This document shows positions 29,996-40,270 of a stretch of 64,000 bases of DNA, in pieces. How positions within the stretch are numbered: position 1 is the stretch's first letter; every line of letters starts with the position of its first letter. The stretch covers positions 434,001 to 498,000 of the forward strand of contig NZ_QWBU01000004.1 in the NCBI RefSeq assembly GCF_003432075.1. The letters run 5' to 3'. The position numbers and the translations under genes are program-made. Under the pieces are notes generated by a model. It worked only from the letters and a program-made list of their open reading frames with translations, did no database searches and was not told the origin of the DNA. The DNA comes from Shinella sp. WSJ-2. Its GTDB lineage: Bacteria > Pseudomonadota > Alphaproteobacteria > Rhizobiales > Rhizobiaceae.

Positions 29996-30334
29996 TCAGA
30001 CGAGTGCGGTGACCTGGATTTCGACCAGCAGCTCCGGCGCGGCGAGGCGGGCCTCGACGGTTGCGCGAACCGGCAGATTGTCCTTGTCGACCCACTGGTC
30101 CCAAACTTCGTTCATCTGGCTGAAATGCGCGATGTCGCGCAGCCAGATGTTGGCGCTGATCAGCTTGGCCTTGGTCGTTCCGGCTTCGGCCAACAATCCG
30201 TCGATCTGGGCAAGGATATCGCGGGTCTGGGCCGTCGTGTCGGCACCATCGCCGGTCACCCCAGCTGTGGTGACGATACCGTTGACGACGACGGCTCCGC
30301 AGAAACGCTTGCCAGGCTTGATACGCTTGATCAT
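29996..30334 (-). CDS. RidA-family enamine/imine deaminase
   Basis: 112 residues, ATG at 30334 with GGGAGA upstream. YjgF/YER057c/UK114 fold. The conserved arginine lies in PVRATVEARL, near the C-terminus as usual. RidA proteins hydrolyse reactive enamines and imines released by PLP enzymes. Its position next to a class III aminotransferase/phospho-lyase, whose product would pass through an enamine, fits a detoxifying partner role. Confidence 0.88.
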   Translation of the reverse strand: MIKRIKPGKRFCGAVVVNGIVTTAGVTGDGADTTAQTRDILAQIDGLLAEAGTTKAKLISANIWLRDIAHFSQMNEVWDQWVDKDNLPVRATVEARLAAPELLVEIQVTALV

Positions 30335-30571
30335 GAAAAGTCTCCCATGGTTATGATCAGAGAATGGTTTGCCAGAGGCCGACAAAATGAAAGGGCGCAT
30401 TCCGCGCCGATCGGCGATGGCAGCGCGGCATCAATGCCGGAAATGCACAGCGAACGCAACTTGCCGCTGAGCGCCGCCATTTTCACCGCCGAACTGTTCG
30501 CGCGCGCCGCAATCCGGCCGACGCCGCTGCTCCAGCCAGACATGTCGGTGAAGCCCAACCGTCGCTTTGGA

Positions 30572-32587
30572 CTAGCCCGCGCGCATGGCAATGGGCCTCG
30601 ACCGCTCCATCGGCGCGGGTTTCCCGAGATAGTATCCTTGCGCTTCCGCGCAGCCTTCGGCACGCAACAGCGCCATTTGTTCCGATGTCTCAACGCCCTC
30701 GGCGAGTACGGGAATTCCGAGACTGCGACCGAGGGCAAGCACGGAGCGCAGGATCGCCCGCGCCTCGGAACTGCGCTCCGCGTCGCGCGTAAAGCAGCCA
30801 TCGATCTTGATCTTGTCGAAGGGGAAGGTGCGCAACGTGTCAAAGGATGAATAACCGACGCCGAAATCGTCGATCGCCAGGAAAACGCCGAGCGCCTTGA
30901 CCTGCCGCAACGCATGCAAAGCCTTGACCTTATCGGCAATGAAGGTCGATTCGGTGATTTCGAGTTCGAGCCGCTTCGCAGGCAGTCCTGTTTCGAGAAG
31001 CACGGCGCGCAGCAGCGCTGGGACATCGCTATTGATGACCTGAACAGGAGAAAGATTAACGGCGATCCTGTGCGGCGCGTCCCAGGTCGCAGCCTCCGCG
31101 CAGGCGGCGCGCAGCACCCATTCGCCGATCGCCAGGATATGGCCGGTCTCCTCAGCGATCGGGATGAAGACCGCTGGCGAGATGCTGCCATGCAGCGGAT
31201 GGTTCCAGCGCAGCAGTGCCTCGTGGCCGACGATGCGGCCGGATGCCACATCCTTCTGCACCTGATAGTGCAAGGCGAACTGGCCGAGTTCCAATGCGCG
31301 CCCGAGATCCTGGGCGAGCGCATAACGTTCGAGGGTGGCCTGCTCCATTGCCGGCTCGTAGAAGGAGATGCGGCGGGAAAGATCGTGTTTGGACTGGTAC
31401 ATAGCCAGATCTGCATGGCAGATCAGTATTTCGCGGTCCGCCCCGTCATCGGGGAAGACTGCAACGCCGATGCTCGCTATGCTCGGCAGGACATTGCCGG
31501 CCACGGAGAGCGGTGTGGTGAGCGCAGCATCGAGACGGGCGAGAAAACTGTCGAGCGCTGTGCGATCGCAAAACCGCTTTACCGCCATGAATTCGTCGCC
31601 ACCGATACGCGCGACGAACTCGTCCTCGCGCAGAAGGCCGGCCAGCCGGCGGCCGATCGTTACCAACACGTCATCACCAGCCTTATGACCGTAGACGTCG
31701 TTGACCTCCTTGAAGCGATCGAGATCGATGCCGATGACCGCAACCTTCTCCTGTCTCTTTTGAGCCTCGACAAATGTGCGGTCGAGATGAGCGAGTGCCT
31801 TCGGGCGATTGGCAAGGCCCGTCAGCGCGTCGTGCAGAGCCAGATGCTCGAGACGCCGCACGGTTTCCTGCGAGGCTTGTTCGTCAAGCAGATAGCTGAT
31901 GACACCGGAGCCGGCCACCAGCATGCCGACGCCCACAACAGCAAACGCGGCCAGCGCCGAAGAGGACGCCGACTGGCTGCCGACCGCAATCGGCGTCACC
32001 GCGAGAGCTGCCATGCCGGTGAAATGCAGGCTGAGAACGGCAAGCATGAACAGTGCGACCGCCAGATAACCCGCATCCCGGATAAAGGGTCGAACCGCCT
32101 GGCGCATGGTGAGCATACCAAAAAACACCGAGAAGGCGAGCGACAGCAGGATGTAGCCGGCCTGCCATTCGACGAGGCCGTCGATACGAAAAGCCAGCAT
32201 GCCGCTATAGTGCATGGCGGAGATCGCAAGGCCAACGACCACGCCGCCTATCTCCGGCGCGGCGTAGATACCCTTCGAAAGCGCAACCCAAAAACCATAG
32301 GCGCAGCCCGTCACGGCGACGAAAAGCGACACCATTGTCCAAGCCGGATCGAAGGTGAAAGCGGCGCCGGCATCATAGGCGACGACCGCGATGAAATGCA
32401 CACACCAGATCGAGGACCCAGCGGCCTGCGAGGCCAGCAGCACCCATCCCGCCCGTTGGCGCCCGACGCGCACCCGCGCCTGCCGGAACAGACGGAATGT
32501 CACCCAGCTGCCCGTTATGCCCACCGCAAGCGCCAGCAGGATCAGCCAGGGATTATGCGTCACGACAAGGCACGAAAGAATGCGCAT
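30572..32587 (-). CDS. MHYT-GGDEF-EAL membrane protein (c-di-GMP metabolism)
   Basis: 671 residues. N-terminal MHYT sensor of about seven helices (residues 10-230) with repeated motifs (WCVHF, MHYSGM, LHFTGM) thought to bind a metal and sense a diatomic gas. GGDEF domain (about 255-410) with intact GGDEF, and EAL domain (about 425-665) with EALLR. Immediately before GGDEF the RxxD inhibitory site reads REDE, so product inhibition may be weakened. Both synthesis and breakdown of c-di-GMP are possible. ATG at 32587 with GGAG. It stands alone between operons. Confidence 0.92.
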   Translation of the reverse strand: MRILSCLVVTHNPWLILLALAVGITGSWVTFRLFRQARVRVGRQRAGWVLLASQAAGSSIWCVHFIAVVAYDAGAAFTFDPAWTMVSLFVAVTGCAYGFWVALSKGIYAAPEIGGVVVGLAISAMHYSGMLAFRIDGLVEWQAGYILLSLAFSVFFGMLTMRQAVRPFIRDAGYLAVALFMLAVLSLHFTGMAALAVTPIAVGSQSASSSALAAFAVVGVGMLVAGSGVISYLLDEQASQETVRRLEHLALHDALTGLANRPKALAHLDRTFVEAQKRQEKVAVIGIDLDRFKEVNDVYGHKAGDDVLVTIGRRLAGLLREDEFVARIGGDEFMAVKRFCDRTALDSFLARLDAALTTPLSVAGNVLPSIASIGVAVFPDDGADREILICHADLAMYQSKHDLSRRISFYEPAMEQATLERYALAQDLGRALELGQFALHYQVQKDVASGRIVGHEALLRWNHPLHGSISPAVFIPIAEETGHILAIGEWVLRAACAEAATWDAPHRIAVNLSPVQVINSDVPALLRAVLLETGLPAKRLELEITESTFIADKVKALHALRQVKALGVFLAIDDFGVGYSSFDTLRTFPFDKIKIDGCFTRDAERSSEARAILRSVLALGRSLGIPVLAEGVETSEQMALLRAEGCAEAQGYYLGKPAPMERSRPIAMRAG

Positions 32588-32732: not shown

Positions 32733-33665
32733 TCATGTCCAGGCATAACGCACAATATGGAAAAAGACGGGAGCGGCGAAGACGAGACTGTCGGCACGGT
32801 CCAGCATGCCACCATGGCCCTCGATCAGATGCCCCCAGTCCTTGACGCCGCGATCGCGCTTGATCGCAGACGCGACGAGGCCGCCGAAGAAACCCATGAT
32901 GCAGGCAAGGCCCGCCAGCACGCCGGCCTCGATTGGCGAAAAGGGTGTCAACCAGTAGAGGCCGGCACCAAGCGCCGACGCGCTCACGATGCCACCGATC
33001 AGGCCTTCCCAGGTTTTCGAGGGCGAGACATTGGGCGCGATCTGGCGGCGGCCGAAGAGCTTTCCGAAAATGTATTGCAGCACATCGCTGCCCTGAACCG
33101 TTGCGATCAGGAAGGCGATGAGCAGCAGGCCGCGCCCCTCGTTACCGGGAATCGGCAGCGTCACCAGCGCCGGCACGTGGCTGATACAATAGACCGAGAG
33201 CATGATGCCCCACTGCTGCTCGCTGACCCGTTCGAGGAAGCGGGAAGTGTCACCACGGATGGCCGTCAGCGCCGGCATGGCGAGGAAGCAATAGACGGGA
33301 ATGAAGATCGAGTAGAGCCCGTACCAGTCGATCCAGATCAGGTAATATTGCGTGGGGATGATGATCACGAACATACCGATGAGTGTCCAGCGATCGGCAT
33401 GACGCGTGTTGGTGAGCGTCACATATTCGCGCAAGGCCGCGAAGGAGACGAAGGCGAAGAGTAGGATCACGCCGCCGGAACCAAACAGGAAGGCGATAGT
33501 GATGCCCGCCACCATGATCCACCAGGCTTTTATGCGCGCATTGAGATTTTCCAGCGTTTCCGGGAGTGGCTTGGGACTGCGCCAGGAAAGCCCCGCGGCA
33601 ACGAGGCTTGCCGTGGTGAGGATGGCGACGAGGCCCCAGAAAAGGCAGGTCGTGTCGTCGTTCAT
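32733..33665 (-). CDS. Phosphatidate cytidylyltransferase-like protein (CdsA family)
   Basis: 310 residues, about eight membrane helices. The CdsA signature is complete: SPSKTWEG and, 60 residues on, KRDRGVKDWGHLIEGHGGMLDRAD. CdsA makes CDP-diacylglycerol from phosphatidate and CTP. Its ATG overlaps the plsC-like stop by four bases. As last gene of the lipid operon it would supply activated lipid to the divergent CDP-alcohol phosphatidyltransferase at 37.9 kb. It is most likely a second, accessory CdsA rather than the housekeeping one. Confidence 0.9.
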   Translation of the reverse strand: MNDDTTCLFWGLVAILTTASLVAAGLSWRSPKPLPETLENLNARIKAWWIMVAGITIAFLFGSGGVILLFAFVSFAALREYVTLTNTRHADRWTLIGMFVIIIPTQYYLIWIDWYGLYSIFIPVYCFLAMPALTAIRGDTSRFLERVSEQQWGIMLSVYCISHVPALVTLPIPGNEGRGLLLIAFLIATVQGSDVLQYIFGKLFGRRQIAPNVSPSKTWEGLIGGIVSASALGAGLYWLTPFSPIEAGVLAGLACIMGFFGGLVASAIKRDRGVKDWGHLIEGHGGMLDRADSLVFAAPVFFHIVRYAWT

Positions 33666-34315
33666 CGGCGGGTTCCATCCCTGTTGGGCGCGAGCGTGAG
33701 AAGAGCGTTGCGGGCACGGTCGAGAAACACCTTGCGATCCTCGCCCTCCTGCAGCGCGACGGGCGTGCCGAACACGACCCGACACAGCAAGGGGATCGGC
33801 AGCACGGCACCCTTGGGCAGCACGCGCGACATGTTCTCGATCCAGCAGGGCACGAGTTCGACATCGGGCCGCGCGCAGGCGAGATTGTAGAGACCGGAGC
33901 GGAAGCGAAGCAACGGCTCCTCTGTCATGTTGCGCGTGCCCTCGGGAAAGAAGATCAGCGACTGGCCGGCATCGAGCGCCGACAGCATGACCTGCATGGG
34001 ATCTGCCGCGCGCTCCACCCAGTTGCGCTCGACGAGAACGGTGCGCAGCAGCTTTCCTGCGATGAAGCGCCTGACGGCACCGGCATTCCAGTAATCCGCC
34101 CCGGCGACGGCGGCGGTGCGGGCGCGCTCGGGCGGCGCGAGGCAGGTCGAGACGAGGATGAAATCGCCATGGCTCGCATGATTGGCGAAATAGATGCGCT
34201 GCCGGCCGTTCGGCCCCGTGCCGGCCCAGATCGGCCGCACGCCCGTCACCGCGCGGGAAAGACCCGCAAGCACCGCGCCGGCCGCCGTTTGCAAAAGGGA
34301 GGCGCCGTCCATCAT
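33662..34315 (-). CDS. 1-acyl-glycerol-3-phosphate acyltransferase-like protein (PlsC family)
   Basis: 217 residues. The acyltransferase motifs NHASHGD (H-x4-D) and FFPEGTR are both present; a short hydrophobic N-terminus anchors it to the membrane. It would make phosphatidate, the CdsA substrate. Start at the first of two adjacent ATGs, overlapping the preceding stop by four bases. Part of the tightly coupled lipid operon. Confidence 0.9.
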   Translation of the reverse strand: MMDGASLLQTAAGAVLAGLSRAVTGVRPIWAGTGPNGRQRIYFANHASHGDFILVSTCLAPPERARTAAVAGADYWNAGAVRRFIAGKLLRTVLVERNWVERAADPMQVMLSALDAGQSLIFFPEGTRNMTEEPLLRFRSGLYNLACARPDVELVPCWIENMSRVLPKGAVLPIPLLCRVVFGTPVALQEGEDRKVFLDRARNALLTLAPNRDGTRR

Positions 34316-34752
34316 ACCGCGTCCCCTCCCGCAATCATGTCGAGCAACAGGACGAGGTAGAGCGCGACACCGATTGCAAGCGCGATGCGCTGCAACCGGA
34401 GGAGCCGGTCGCAACCGGCAAGGCGATCGGCCAAGGGTGCAGGAACAGGACTCGCGGACCGCAGGCCCATACGGACGAGCACGTCATCGATTGCGACAAG
34501 CCCCGCCGTCTCATCGTCATGGGACGCTGCCAGACGGAACAGGGCGGCGTCGAAGAGCAGATGAACGGAGACGGCAAGCGGCAGCAGGCAGAATGCGAAG
34601 AGCAGCCACCAGGGGAGCGGTCCGGCAAAGCCTTCCGCCCCCGCGGTCGGCGGGGCGATCGCGAGGATCAGCACGGCCACTCCGCCGCCGGCAAAAGCGT
34701 TGCGGCGCAGGCGCCTGACGGCATCGTTCGTCAGCGTCTTCCAGTCGCTCAT
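34312..34752 (-). CDS. Small membrane protein of the lipid operon, function unknown
   Basis: 146 residues with a basic N-terminus (WKTLTNDAVRRLRRNAFAGG) and three hydrophobic segments (about 22-37, 46-67, 120-142). The ATG overlaps the PAP2-DSP stop (ATGA) and its own stop overlaps the PlsC start. No motif is recognised. Conservation of the coupling suggests a structural or chaperone role in a membrane-lipid complex. Confidence 0.75.
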   Translation of the reverse strand: MSDWKTLTNDAVRRLRRNAFAGGGVAVLILAIAPPTAGAEGFAGPLPWWLLFAFCLLPLAVSVHLLFDAALFRLAASHDDETAGLVAIDDVLVRMGLRSASPVPAPLADRLAGCDRLLRLQRIALAIGVALYLVLLLDMIAGGDAV

Positions 34753-36083
34753 CGCGCCGCCTCGTCGATGGCGGCAAAAATCTCCGGCCGTAGATGCACG
34801 GGGCGACCCGCCGCCTTGATCCGCTCGCCGGCGATCGCGGCATTGGCGGCATGGCCCGCGCGGATCAGCCAGCAAGCGGCAACCGCCGCGCTGCGCTGGA
34901 AGCCGAGGGCACAGCAGATGAGAACCGGCCCATGGCGGCTGGCGTCTTCAACGGCAAGGGCCGCCGCGCGGATGCGGCCGGCCTCGAGCGGCAGAAGGTC
35001 CGTCGAGGGAAAGGCGTGCCATGTCAGGCCGGGGGCGGCGATGGCCGGCATTTCCGCCGTCATGTCGATCACGGCGACATAGGTCGAAAGCTCGGAGCGC
35101 CGGGGGGTACGGCCGAGAAACACCCCGTCGGCGAGTTCGACGGCGGGGGCGAGGTTTCGCGTCCACCAGAGCACGTTCAGCCGGGCACCGAGACGATAGG
35201 GCCAGAGCAGCCAGCGGCTGGCGAGGCTGATGCGTCCGTCCGCCCGCTTCTGGAAGACATCAGGGCCGGCACCCGCATAACCGAGAGCGACGATGGCAAG
35301 CGCCACGCCCGGCCACACGAAAAGAAGGCCGGCGCCGGAACCCCGCGTCGCGAGAACGGCCAGCAGCAGGAAGGCGGCCGCACCGGTGGCATAAAAGCGT
35401 GCCAGCCGCCATGCCTTCGCGTCCTGCGTCCAGCGGAAACCGGCAAGCGGCGAAGGGCCTTGCGCCGGAAAGAGCCAGAGCGCGAAGAGGCCGAGCAGCG
35501 CGCCGGTTGGGATATCGATGAGATGGTGCTGCCAGGTCGTGAGCACCGACAGGCCGATCAACAGGCTCCAGACATGCCAGAGCGCCAGCACTGCCCCACG
35601 CAGCCGGCAGCGCCAATGATCCCAGATGATGACGAGCAGCGCGATATGCAGCGAGGGCGCCTGGTTGAACGGCTTGTCGAAACCGCCGAGCACGTCGAAC
35701 ATGAAGCCCGGCAGGCCATGCGTTTCCGGCCGCACGAAGATCGCCTGCAAGGGAAAGGCGATGAAGCAGGTGACGGCGACGATCTGCGCCGTCAGGTAGC
35801 GTCGGGCCAGCCGCCCGACGGCCTCAGGCGTCGCGTTGATGAAGAGCGAGAGCGCATAGAAGGCGTTGATCGACCAATAGGGCACGATCGTCCAGGCGAG
35901 GAAGGGAATGTGCCGCTCCCATCCGAAGGCGAGGTTGGGCACGTAAGCGCGCTGCGCGGCCAGCCAGTTTGCCACGCCATAGGTCAGGTAGAAGAACGGT
36001 GCGAGGAAGGCGAGCCAGAGCGCCGCCGTGCGCAAGACGGCGCGGCGATCGGCGGTCGGCACGGAAACGATCCCCTCCCCCAT
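34749..36083 (-). CDS. PAP2-type membrane phosphatase/transferase fused to dual-specificity phosphatase
   Basis: 444 residues, ATG at 36083 with GAGGG upstream. The N-terminal two-thirds has at least seven helices and PAP2/Aur1-like motifs FNQAPSLHIAL and HHLIDIPTG. The C-terminal 150 residues form a DSP domain with the CX5R loop CALGFQRS. The residue before the nucleophilic cysteine is Cys instead of the common His. DSP enzymes of the PTPMT1 type dephosphorylate phosphatidylglycerophosphate or phosphoinositides; PAP2/Aur1-type enzymes cleave or transfer lipid phosphates. Both could finish a lipid made by the other operon products. Confidence 0.85.
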   Translation of the reverse strand: MGEGIVSVPTADRRAVLRTAALWLAFLAPFFYLTYGVANWLAAQRAYVPNLAFGWERHIPFLAWTIVPYWSINAFYALSLFINATPEAVGRLARRYLTAQIVAVTCFIAFPLQAIFVRPETHGLPGFMFDVLGGFDKPFNQAPSLHIALLVIIWDHWRCRLRGAVLALWHVWSLLIGLSVLTTWQHHLIDIPTGALLGLFALWLFPAQGPSPLAGFRWTQDAKAWRLARFYATGAAAFLLLAVLATRGSGAGLLFVWPGVALAIVALGYAGAGPDVFQKRADGRISLASRWLLWPYRLGARLNVLWWTRNLAPAVELADGVFLGRTPRRSELSTYVAVIDMTAEMPAIAAPGLTWHAFPSTDLLPLEAGRIRAAALAVEDASRHGPVLICCALGFQRSAAVAACWLIRAGHAANAAIAGERIKAAGRPVHLRPEIFAAIDEAAR

Positions 36084-36090
36084 GCCGCCC

Positions 36091-37827
36091 TCAGATGCGC
36101 TCGGCCAGCGAGACGGTGAAGATGCCCCACGTATCGATGCGCTGCTCGATCTTGCGGAAACCGGCGGCGGCGACCAGCTGGTCCATCTCCTGCTGCGTGC
36201 GCCGGCGCATGATCCAGGCCTCGCCGCCGCGATGCGAGGTAAGCGCACGGGCGATCATCTCCAGCTGCGGATGCCAGGGCTGGCCGGTATAGACGAGCAG
36301 CGAGCCCGGCTCCAATGCCCGCGACAGGCCGGCAAGCGACGCCTCGATCTGGGCATTGTCGGGAAAGAGCTCGTAGAGACCGGACACGATGGCGAGCGTC
36401 GGGCGCGGCTCTATCGATGCCAGCCCGTCCGTATCAAAGGCATCGGCACGGTGGAAACTGGCGATGTCCTGAAGGCCGCGCTCGGCGATCAGCGCCGTGC
36501 CCTTTTCGACATTGATCGGCGAATAATCCTGCAGGCGGATGCTGTCCGGTTTCGCTTCGGAGGCCGTCACCGCGTCCAGCACATAGCGCCCGTGGCCGGC
36601 GGCGATGTCGAGCACACGGATCGCCTTGCCCTCACCCTTGAGGCGCGCAAGCGCCTTGCCGATCAGCTCCTCCAGATGTACCTTGCGCTGGCGGATGCCG
36701 CGCCAGCCGATGGCGTCGAGGAACTGCCGGTCGATCAGCCGCCCGCCGGGACCGAGGCCGCGCGGTTCGTTTTCATAGACATAATCCAGCGTCGAGCCGG
36801 AATCGAAGCCGGTGCGCACGCCCGTCGCGATGCCCTTCGAAAACAGCCCACCGATCCGGATGGAGGCACGCGTCAGCGCCCAATAGGCGCCGCGCGGCGA
36901 AAACAACGAGAGCGGTGTCGCCAGCCGGTCAGCCTCGTCACGGGTATGGCCGGAAAGATGCGCGCGGCGGACATCCGCAACGACAGGTGGCTCGGCAAAG
37001 CGCGCGAGGATAAAGCTGCGCACCATGTCCAGCGCTTTGGCCCTATCCCGCTCGCCGAGCGTATCGTGGAAGAAGCCGGGCAACACATGGCGTTCCTTGA
37101 TCGTGCTGCCAAGATTTTCAAAGAAACGGTGCTGCGGGCCATGGCGCACAACGAAATCACTGCCGGAAATCAGAAGCTGCGTCGGCACGGTGATGGCACG
37201 GGCATCCGCTACCACGCGATCGGCCGCCTCGTAAAGCTCCAGCAGGATGTTGGACGCGATGGGCCGGGTGATCAGCGGATCGGCCTCGAAGGAGGCGATA
37301 CGCTCGGGATCATGCGTCAAGAAACGCGCCTTGACGTAGGAATTGACGAAGAACGTGCCCTTCAGCTTCTGCCAGAGCGCGATGCCTTCGCGCGCGAAGG
37401 GCACATAGAGCTTGACGCTGAAGGCCGGCGAGGCGAGCACCAGCGCGCGGATATCGGGCGCATAATCGTGCACCCAGGTCGCGGCCAGCACCGCGCCGAC
37501 GCTCTGCGCCAGCACGACGACCTGATCCATCGCGAAACCGTCGGTCTCGCGGATATGGCGTACGAAGCAGTCGAGGTCGCGAACGGAATGGGCAAAGGAC
37601 GGCGAATGGCCGCGCTCGCCGGGTGAGCGGCCATGACCGCGCGCATCCCACGCATAGAAAGCGAAATCGGCAAGCCCCAGCTCCTCGGCGATATGGGCGA
37701 CGCGGCCGCTGTGTTCGTGACCACGATGGAGCAGCACGATCGCGCCTTTTGCCGTGCCGGACCGGGCCGGCCAGTAGCGATAGAAGAGCTCTACGCCATC
37801 ATGGCTCGCAAAGGCCTTTTCGATCAT
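36091..37827 (-). CDS. Bifunctional alpha/beta hydrolase and class I methyltransferase
   Basis: 578 residues, ATG at 37827 with GAGGGGG upstream. The N-terminal hydrolase (about 1-290) resembles monoacylglycerol lipases/lysophospholipases: LLHRGHEHSGR oxyanion region, nucleophile elbow AQSVGA, late PGFFHD histidine. The C-terminal half (about 390-578) is a SAM-dependent methyltransferase with the motif RVLDIAAGHGRYVLDA. First gene of the lipid operon, so it could trim an acyl chain and methylate a head group. Fusion order and intact motifs argue for two working domains. Confidence 0.87.
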   Translation of the reverse strand: MIEKAFASHDGVELFYRYWPARSGTAKGAIVLLHRGHEHSGRVAHIAEELGLADFAFYAWDARGHGRSPGERGHSPSFAHSVRDLDCFVRHIRETDGFAMDQVVVLAQSVGAVLAATWVHDYAPDIRALVLASPAFSVKLYVPFAREGIALWQKLKGTFFVNSYVKARFLTHDPERIASFEADPLITRPIASNILLELYEAADRVVADARAITVPTQLLISGSDFVVRHGPQHRFFENLGSTIKERHVLPGFFHDTLGERDRAKALDMVRSFILARFAEPPVVADVRRAHLSGHTRDEADRLATPLSLFSPRGAYWALTRASIRIGGLFSKGIATGVRTGFDSGSTLDYVYENEPRGLGPGGRLIDRQFLDAIGWRGIRQRKVHLEELIGKALARLKGEGKAIRVLDIAAGHGRYVLDAVTASEAKPDSIRLQDYSPINVEKGTALIAERGLQDIASFHRADAFDTDGLASIEPRPTLAIVSGLYELFPDNAQIEASLAGLSRALEPGSLLVYTGQPWHPQLEMIARALTSHRGGEAWIMRRRTQQEMDQLVAAAGFRKIEQRIDTWGIFTVSLAERI

Positions 37828-37947
37828 GCTGTCCCCCTCATGCAAATGTCATTCTCACCTATACGGATGAGGCCTCATATTTGCAGTTGATTTCCCGTCG
37901 ATTGCACATTCATTTCAGCCGGAGCAATCGAGCGGATTCAAGCATTC

Positions 37948-38544
37948 ATGTCGATCTATAAACTGAAATCGTCCTTCCAGACCCTTCTACGGCCCTTGGT
38001 CGGGCGGCTCGCCGCCATGGGCCTCACGGCAAATCAGGTGACACTTGTCGCCGCCGTCGTTTCCGTCGGCATCGGCGGCCTGCTGCTTGCCCGGCCCGAA
38101 CCCGCCCTTTTCGCGCTCGTTCCGGTCTGGATGGTCCTGCGCATGGCCTTCAACGCCATCGACGGCATGCTGGCGCGCGAGCACGGCCAGAAAAGCGCGC
38201 TCGGTGGCTATCTCAACGAGATCACCGATGTCGTCTCCGATGCCGCGCTCTACGCGCCCTTCGCGCTCATCGCGCCCTTTTCGCTGCCATGGCTGACGGC
38301 GATCATCTTCCTCGCCACGCTTACGGAATTCGCCGGTGTGCTTGGCGTCGCGCATGGCAATGGCCGCAACTACGAAGGGCCGATGGGCAAGAGCGACCGG
38401 GCGCTGCTGTTCGGGGCACTCGGGGCGCTCGTTGCGGTGTTCGGCACCCTGCCGGCCTGGACATGGCATATCCAGCCGATGGCCTGCGTGCTGCTCGCCT
38501 GGACCGTCGTCAACCGGGTACGCGCCGGGCTGTCAGAAGCATAG
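37948..38544 (+). CDS. CDP-alcohol phosphatidyltransferase-family protein with altered metal motif
   Basis: 198 residues, five or six membrane helices. The family motif D-x2-DG-x2-AR-x8-G-x3-D-x3-D reads N-x2-DG-x2-AR-x8-G-x3-N-x3-D (segment FNAIDGMLAR to YLNEITD), so two of the four aspartates are asparagine. The family transfers a phosphatidyl group from CDP-diacylglycerol to an alcohol. It is divergent from the lipid operon, 120 bases away. Product lipid unknown. It stops three bases from the convergent rarA stop. Confidence 0.87.
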   Translation: MSIYKLKSSFQTLLRPLVGRLAAMGLTANQVTLVAAVVSVGIGGLLLARPEPALFALVPVWMVLRMAFNAIDGMLAREHGQKSALGGYLNEITDVVSDAALYAPFALIAPFSLPWLTAIIFLATLTEFAGVLGVAHGNGRNYEGPMGKSDRALLFGALGALVAVFGTLPAWTWHIQPMACVLLAWTVVNRVRAGLSEA

Positions 38545-39877: not shown

Positions 39878-40270
39878 TCAGGCCGGCCGGCGGCGGGCCG
39901 CAATGGCCGTGACTTCCACCTTCATGTCGGGATCGGCAAGGGCGGCGACGCCGACGGCGCAACGGACCGGATAGGGCTTTTTGAAGTAGTTGCAATAGAC
40001 ATCGTTGAAGGCCGGGCGCTCGTTGATATCGGTGAGATAGATCGTCAGGTGCATAACGTCGGCCAGGCTGCTGCCGGCCTTTTCCAGCGAGCTTTTCAGA
40101 CTTTCCAGCGTTGCGATGCTCTGGGTCTTGATGTCACCGGTCTCGATCGAGCCGTCGGCGCGCAGCGGGATATGCGTCGTGAAGAGAAGGTTGCCGAGGC
40201 CTGTCGTATCGGAGGAAATCTCGCTCTCGTCCGTGTCCTCGATGAAGAAAGGGGCGCTGTTGTCAGCCAT
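39878..40270 (-). CDS. RidA-family protein
   Basis: 130 residues, ATG at 40270. YjgF/RidA fold with a longer acidic N-terminus (FFIEDTDESEISSDTTG). The conserved arginine lies in YPVRCAVGVAAL. It lies 17 bases upstream of and 19 bases downstream from its neighbours on the same strand. It could deaminate enamines made by the adjacent PLP-dependent D-threonine-aldolase-like enzyme. Confidence 0.87.
   Translation of the reverse strand: MADNSAPFFIEDTDESEISSDTTGLGNLLFTTHIPLRADGSIETGDIKTQSIATLESLKSSLEKAGSSLADVMHLTIYLTDINERPAFNDVYCNYFKKPYPVRCAVGVAALADPDMKVEVTAIAARRRPA

Follow-up and report, generated by a model that had tools for sequence, protein, structure and literature searches.

The closest described relatives of the gene cluster reported here are known from two bacteria. 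In Pseudomonas aeruginosa, genes PA2541-36 owe the name arc1A-F to a screen of transposon mutants for those surviving attack by type VI secretion (PMC8926400), and loss of arc1A is described as lowering survival against Burkholderia thailandensis (PMC8926400) and as sensitising the organism to lipase-bearing attackers or lipase effectors (PMC12663445). An overlapping set is present in Escherichia coli K-12 as ynbABCD; there, YnbB is reported to make CDP-diacylglycerol (CDP-DAG) in vitro but not to be able to carry bulk synthesis (review PMC7018664; PMC6362211). In this report, we found that a six-gene cluster of Shinella sp. WSJ-2, lying at positions 32733-38544 of a 64,000-nucleotide stretch of contig NZ_QWBU01000004.1 (the window), is the counterpart of arc1/ynb, now placed in Rhizobiaceae. 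The original prediction, made from the letters of this DNA, held that the set matched no pathway that could be named. That claim must be withdrawn, as the set has been published as arc1A-F (PMC8926400).

A sequence link between the window and arc1 was sought with a published PA2541 primer, which was found in 0/398 genomes in one genus and 1/25 in another. One locus (L233) holds three of the four PA2541 primer pieces and six genes in arc1 order; judged by these sequences, it is from P. aeruginosa or a near relative, and it serves below as the arc1 locus. The features of the cluster, in window coordinates, are as follows.

32733-33665, minus strand: CdsA-like CDP-DAG synthase, counterpart of YnbB and Arc1F (CTP_transf_1, 229 bits; 42% identical to YnbB and 61% in the arc1 locus)
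33662-34315, minus strand: PlsC-like acyltransferase, counterpart of Arc1E (Pfam Acyltransferase, 62 bits; 50% in the arc1 locus)
34312-34752, minus strand: small membrane protein, counterpart of Arc1D by position (hydrophobic stretches 19-38, 42-74 and 117-146)
34749-36083, minus strand: fusion of a PAP2-like membrane domain and a dual-specificity phosphatase (DSP) domain, counterpart of YnbD and Arc1C (36% identical to YnbD over 420 residues)
36091-37827, minus strand: fusion of a monoacylglycerol-lipase-like hydrolase and Methyltransf_20, counterpart of YnbC and Arc1B (Pfam; 57% identical to YnbC)
37860-37892, minus strand: promoter-like footprint AATCAAC-N20-CGTATA upstream of the five-gene operon (same pattern in relatives)
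37948-38544, plus strand: divergent protein resembling CDP-alcohol phosphatidyltransferases (CDP-APs), counterpart of YnbA and Arc1A (CDP-OH_P_transf, 36 bits; 44% identical to YnbA)
38152-38229, plus strand: altered CDP-AP signature N69-xx-D72-G73-xx-A76-R77-x8-G86-xxx-N90-E91-xx-D94 (alignment rows)

The predicted layout proved correct in every coordinate: the five minus-strand genes are joined by three four-base overlaps and one seven-base gap (36084-36090), and 120 bases (37828-37947) separate the hydrolase-methyltransferase gene, which has an alternative TTG start at 37845, from the divergent CDP-AP gene. Housekeeping-type homologues were expected elsewhere in the genome, and the same assembly indeed contains a second CdsA-family gene (PF01148, at G000:C27:202602-203345), three more acyltransferase-family genes and three more CDP-AP-family genes. 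These homologues, together with the tendency of the cluster genes to stay together in relatives, support the idea of a dedicated lipid cluster.

The signature of the divergent protein and its link to PlsC-CdsA are the part of this work worth specialist attention. CDP-APs are defined by the motif D1xxD2GxxAR...GxxxD3xxxD4. Assignment of the protein to this family was sound insofar as it exceeds the Pfam CDP-OH_P_transf cut-off (36 vs 22 bits) and its AlphaFold model (pLDDT 91) has the expected fold, with phosphatidylinositol phosphate (PIP) synthase as the best fold match and phosphatidylglycerol phosphate (PGP) synthase far lower in rank. What the prediction missed is that two of the four signature aspartates are absent: DxxDGxxAR(x8)GxxxDxxxD is not found in the window protein, Asp 1 and Asp 3 being Asn, and for this reason we file the protein as CDP-AP-like and refer to such proteins as N-type. 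N69, N90 and the following E91 are present in all 107 readable rows of 108 aligned, with Asp 2 and Asp 4 kept; the rows are related and include duplicates (at least three pairs, L133/L036, L134/L024 and L135/L068, each on two contigs of the same length). Asn also occupies both positions in 36 of the 37 sampled genomes with an arc1A-clade protein, the exception (L186) having Ala at position 1. As a yardstick, 44 CDP-OH_P_transf matches from 13 genomes comprised three N-type proteins (window, G008 and G012) and 41 with Asp at positions 1 and 3, among them one (L004) whose different motif spacing was read by eye. A Glu following Asp 3 occurs in none of the 41 D-type motif instances, which represent 40 loci (one gene counted twice).

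The substitution is not confined to the arc1A clade. A second, distant clade (L187-L192, L234, L235, L237 and L239) reads NxxDGxxA[VIM]...NE or ND, with both Asn in 10/10 members; the Arg of the AR pair is lost in 6/6 aligned members and likewise in four further motifs. PlsC and CdsA lie alongside in 9/10, and the stretches fetched around these genes carry no hydrolase-methyltransferase or PAP2-DSP gene, bar a weak hydrolase match in L188. A Rhizobium-type genome (G043) has an arc1-like locus without PlsC or CdsA (L134, contig C1448) and a second-clade triad elsewhere (L192, contig C1260); it is possible that this triad supplies the steps absent from the former. Our literature searches, with many subscription papers and preprints outside their reach, found no description of an N-type class.

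What such a site could do is constrained by studies of conventional enzymes. In M. tuberculosis PgsA1, one magnesium ion is bound by Asp 1, 2 and 3 and the other by Asp 3 and 4 (PMC6506517). For MjPSS, any change of the signature residues is reported to reduce or abolish activity, and adding Mg2+ brings back little or none of the activity lost in D62N (Asp 3) (PMC8633023); phosphatidyl transfer by the window's CDP-AP is therefore only putative. This result, and the presence of Asn at two metal-ligand positions in 36 of the 37 arc1A-clade genomes, would fit a protein that is no transferase but a scaffold or sensor, binding CDP-DAG and steering it from the dedicated CdsA. Against this idea, neither Asp 2 nor Asp 4 varies, nor do the Gly and the basic residues, and Asn 3 is followed by an acidic residue that is new. 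The site thus looks re-tuned, and we consider a scaffold or sensor quite improbable.

Co-occurrence was searched from the hydrolase-methyltransferase and the CDP-AP only, in the 80 best Rhizobiales loci (some cut by contig ends) and in 398 evenly drawn genomes of Proteobacteria. Shinella species, joined by Rhizobium wenxiniae, account for most of the closest loci, in which the hydrolase-methyltransferase is 90-94% identical; on this basis the window looks like part of a Shinella-type Rhizobiaceae genome. The CDP-AP and hydrolase-methyltransferase genes are direct neighbours in 80/80 Rhizobiales loci, and all six genes were detected in 53 of them. In the broader draw, a Methyltransf_20 protein occurs in 27/398 genomes; apart from the window's own, the CDP-AP adjoins it in 26/26, 24 have a PAP2-DSP gene, 23 have both PlsC and CdsA, and 18 have the full set of six. 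The CDP-AP profile found 50 places in 49/398 genomes, and all 50 were read: 37 belong to the arc1A/ynbA clade, ten to the second clade, and three are ordinary D-type proteins without a PlsC-CdsA pair. All 27 genomes with the hydrolase-methyltransferase also carry an arc1A/ynbA-clade CDP-AP. With both N-type clades taken together, PlsC and CdsA both lie within 7 kb in 41/47 cases. Because our D-type control loci span 1.5 kb on each side, the like-for-like comparison is that of either gene within 1.5 kb, which holds for 20/47 N-type and 0/31 D-type loci. The same set is found again across classes of Proteobacteria, and the grouping exceeds chance; the scattering among related genomes that the prediction named as one refutation was not seen, because the genes stay together. 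Among the sampled loci, L137 has a 2234-base gap, and L124 and L126 have short ones. A Rhizobiales-type operon (L081) stands in a record titled Bacillus subtilis, an assembly that is probably mislabelled or mixed.

Catalytic residues are intact in five of the domains encoded beside the CDP-AP, and from these residues the domains look competent. The hydrolase-methyltransferase matches Methyltransf_20 (496 bits) and Hydrolase_4 (240 bits), and the best solved relative of its hydrolase half is the M. tuberculosis monoglyceride lipase (E 5e-21). Hydrolase residues S109, D224 and H254 and methyltransferase residues D407/G411/G413 are kept in 108/108 rows. A PADLOC mad2 match to the methyltransferase half (E 6e-6) was dropped as a general methyltransferase match. 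The PlsC-like protein has HX4D in 83/83 readable rows and FPEGTR in 84/84. In the CdsA-like protein the catalytic C-terminal residues are kept in 85-86 of 86 rows, and its score is under the housekeeping CdsA cut-off (NF008635; 106 vs 385 bits). The roles of the hydrolase residues S109, D224 and H254, of HX4D and of CX5R in catalysis are established for those families.

The PAP2-DSP fusion was predicted correctly in its C-terminal half, where the AlphaFold model (pLDDT 88) has the DSP fold; its profile support is less firm, with DSPc below the cut-off (21.3 vs 33.5) and the PAP2 half devoid of a Pfam match even at E 10. E. coli YnbD scores 97 bits with DSPc and matches PAP2_3 and PAP2 at E of about 1e-4, under their cut-offs. 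The Cys and Arg of the DSP CX5R motif are present in 101/101 readable rows, along with the general-acid Asp, and the His that would precede the motif is Cys in 98. No match to the PAP2 half was seen among the best 50 of 496 fold matches. Classical PAP2 proteins have three motifs ending in SRx5HxxxD. In the window's PAP2 half, PSLH and H-H-xx-D are kept, but the motif-3 Arg is Thr in 104/104 rows, and the classical pattern is not found; in its motifs, the half may resemble PAP2_3-type lipid phosphotransferases as much as phosphatases. The small protein at 34312-34752, with its three hydrophobic stretches, has no Pfam or NCBIfam match at E 0.001.

Orthology, co-occurrence, intact residues in five domains and the altered CDP-AP site lead us to conclude that the cluster is probably a phospholipid module of the arc1/ynb type that has a supply line of its own. 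Lysophosphatidate would be acylated by the PlsC-like enzyme, and the YnbB-like enzyme would convert the phosphatidate to CDP-DAG apart from the housekeeping pool. From there the N-type CDP-AP would transfer the phosphatidyl group to an acceptor, for which a phosphorylated polyol is the likeliest candidate. A phosphate would next be taken off by the DSP domain, and perhaps by PAP2 too, leaving the lipase-like and methyltransferase domains to trim the lipid or its head group and to methylate it. The lipid product, or the rebuilding as such, may let membranes withstand phospholipase attack. The acceptor, the product and the order of steps are all inferred. Inositol phosphate was considered as an acceptor and set aside: neither this genome nor the control genome of E. 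coli yielded an inositol-1-phosphate synthase (PF01658), and de novo supply is thus unlikely. More tentatively, we suggest that the N-type proteins could constitute an unrecognised class of CDP-AP-like enzymes, with a private PlsC-CdsA supply of CDP-DAG, that make an undescribed phospholipid; in the arc1 branch, it might be further dephosphorylated and methylated, protecting membranes from phospholipase toxins.

The same enzymes could instead perform an emergency resynthesis of the phosphatidylglycerol type, in which ordinary phospholipid is rebuilt from lyso-lipid debris after phospholipase attack and no new lipid is made. Four of the six arc1 products are described as resembling phosphatidylglycerol-synthesis enzymes (PMC8926400), the hydrolase is monoacylglycerol-lipase-like, and the DSP phosphatases include PTPMT1, which ranks 34 among the fold matches of our PAP2-DSP model. 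The CDP-AP, however, matches PIP synthases (E 4e-11) far better in sequence than it does PGP synthase (E 0.12) and its metal site is altered, and resynthesis leaves the conserved methyltransferase without explanation; we judge it unlikely. We give very little credence to a third proposal, made for YnbB, that the operon feeds synthesis of the glycolipid MPIase. Its level is reported to rise in E. coli on YnbB overproduction but to be unchanged on loss of ynbB (PMC6362211), and the other genes of the operon are given no role.

Beside the MjPSS result, several points weigh against the dedicated module that we favor. To our knowledge, no methylated product has been described for the cluster. PlsC is absent from 17/80 Rhizobiales loci, which also have no CdsA beside the operon (in one of them, a CdsA-like gene lies about 8 kb away); the hydrolase-methyltransferase is absent from 10/37 arc1A/ynbA-clade genomes; and the cluster genes are also found in other orders, in sampled genomes and in E. 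coli. CdsA is reported not to be replaceable by YnbB (PMC6362211). In the account of arc1, no single B. thailandensis effector deletion abolishes the defect, the Tle3 and ColA screens each brought only one arc1 gene past the cut-off, and Gac/Rsm is described as limited to gamma-Proteobacteria (PMC8926400). Finally, the role of arc1A against lipases has been called auxiliary (PMC12663445).

The Rhizobiales loci without PlsC, and an E. coli locus without PlsC and the small protein, disfavor a single indivisible pathway. The self-contained unit that was predicted therefore holds only in that the six genes co-occur; it is not one fixed unit, as the triad of PlsC, CdsA and CDP-AP also occurs alone. 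Among the ten genomes that lack the hydrolase-methyltransferase, eight have the bare triad, one has a broken CDP-AP beside CdsA, and in the last the CDP-AP (L186) stands alone. On gene content, the core is PlsC-CdsA-CDP-AP, and the hydrolase-methyltransferase and phosphatase are add-ons. Plasmids carry the module as well: 58 PLSDB records match the hydrolase-methyltransferase, 29 of them over 80% of its length. Burkholderia ambifaria and Citrobacter plasmids have five of the six genes by profile, and where the sixth would stand, a small protein is annotated. Beyond the Proteobacteria, a Fusobacterium record has the hydrolase-methyltransferase, CDP-AP and a CdsA-like gene in two pieces. A Pseudanabaena plasmid encodes CDP-AP, CdsA, PlsC and the methyltransferase half without the hydrolase half; this content suggests that methylation is bound more closely to the core than the hydrolase is.

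Other loci were noted in passing. The core genes and the methyltransferase half alone lie beside nif genes on a cyanobacterial plasmid (L176). A Moraxella osloensis plasmid (L172) has an N-type CDP-AP and a hydrolase-methyltransferase split over two frames, among transposases, and also holds patatin-like phospholipase, SDR, CdsA-like and PAP2 genes. In Kosakonia cowanii (L173), a 36% identical hydrolase-methyltransferase homolog stands in a different context, with acyl carrier protein, ketosynthase, dehydratase and FabG genes. In the window itself, small proteins that appear RidA-like by eye flank the region on both sides (29996-30400 and 39878-40270), and a protein reading by eye as GGDEF-EAL is encoded downstream (30572-32587). 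The promoter-like pattern AATCAAC-N20-CGTATA is found in 11/80 Rhizobiales loci (L006-L016). Its one exact match in its own genome is at this operon, with one more at one mismatch, and a regulon read from the footprint was accordingly rejected.

How, then, does the cluster compare with known systems? In both sequence and fold, the CDP-AP best matches actinobacterial PIP synthase and archaeal archaetidylinositol phosphate (AIP) synthase, but the window protein falls under the curated NCBIfam cut-offs (72 vs 180 and 48.5 vs 170 bits) and differs in the Asn at Asp 1 and Asp 3. With N-type CDP-AP, the key enzyme breaks a signature that has been treated as essential.

The likeness to arc1A-F is close. 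The six families occur together, B-C-D-E-F following one another in that order and A lying next to B, and identities between the window and L233 are 54% for A, 63% for B, 48% for C, 50% for E and 61% for F; the weak point is the small protein, paired with Arc1D by position and 19.7 bits only. In P. aeruginosa, arc1A is first and in the same direction, whereas its counterpart in the window is divergent, as it is in 50/80 Rhizobiales loci in all, 33 of which retain five or more of the six genes (same direction in 30/80). Gac/Rsm control and the type VI secretion resistance phenotype are features known in P. aeruginosa only.

To ynbABCD, the window offers full-length orthologs (CDP-AP 44%, CdsA-like 42%, hydrolase-methyltransferase 57% and PAP2-DSP 36% identical), but the E. 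coli locus has neither PlsC nor the small membrane protein, and its order, A-B-C-D in one direction, is not that of the window. At least 80% of the ynb locus is present in 4,242/5,426 complete E. coli genomes. In each of the five best-ranked E. coli records (H31-H35) a transposase is listed within the ynb match; insertion sequences thus break the locus in some strains. A bare triad elsewhere (L183) has as neighbours an AzoR-like gene and one for a protein of 1300 residues, surroundings (azoR, hrpA) that match those of ynbABCD, and modules thus seem to be exchanged at one site. The comparison narrows the question to a PlsC-CdsA-CDP-AP core with an add-on hydrolase-methyltransferase and phosphatase, whose lipid and chemistry are open to testing in E. 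coli K-12. The same cluster is shared by E. coli K-12, P. aeruginosa and many Rhizobiales, with a defence phenotype in one of these.

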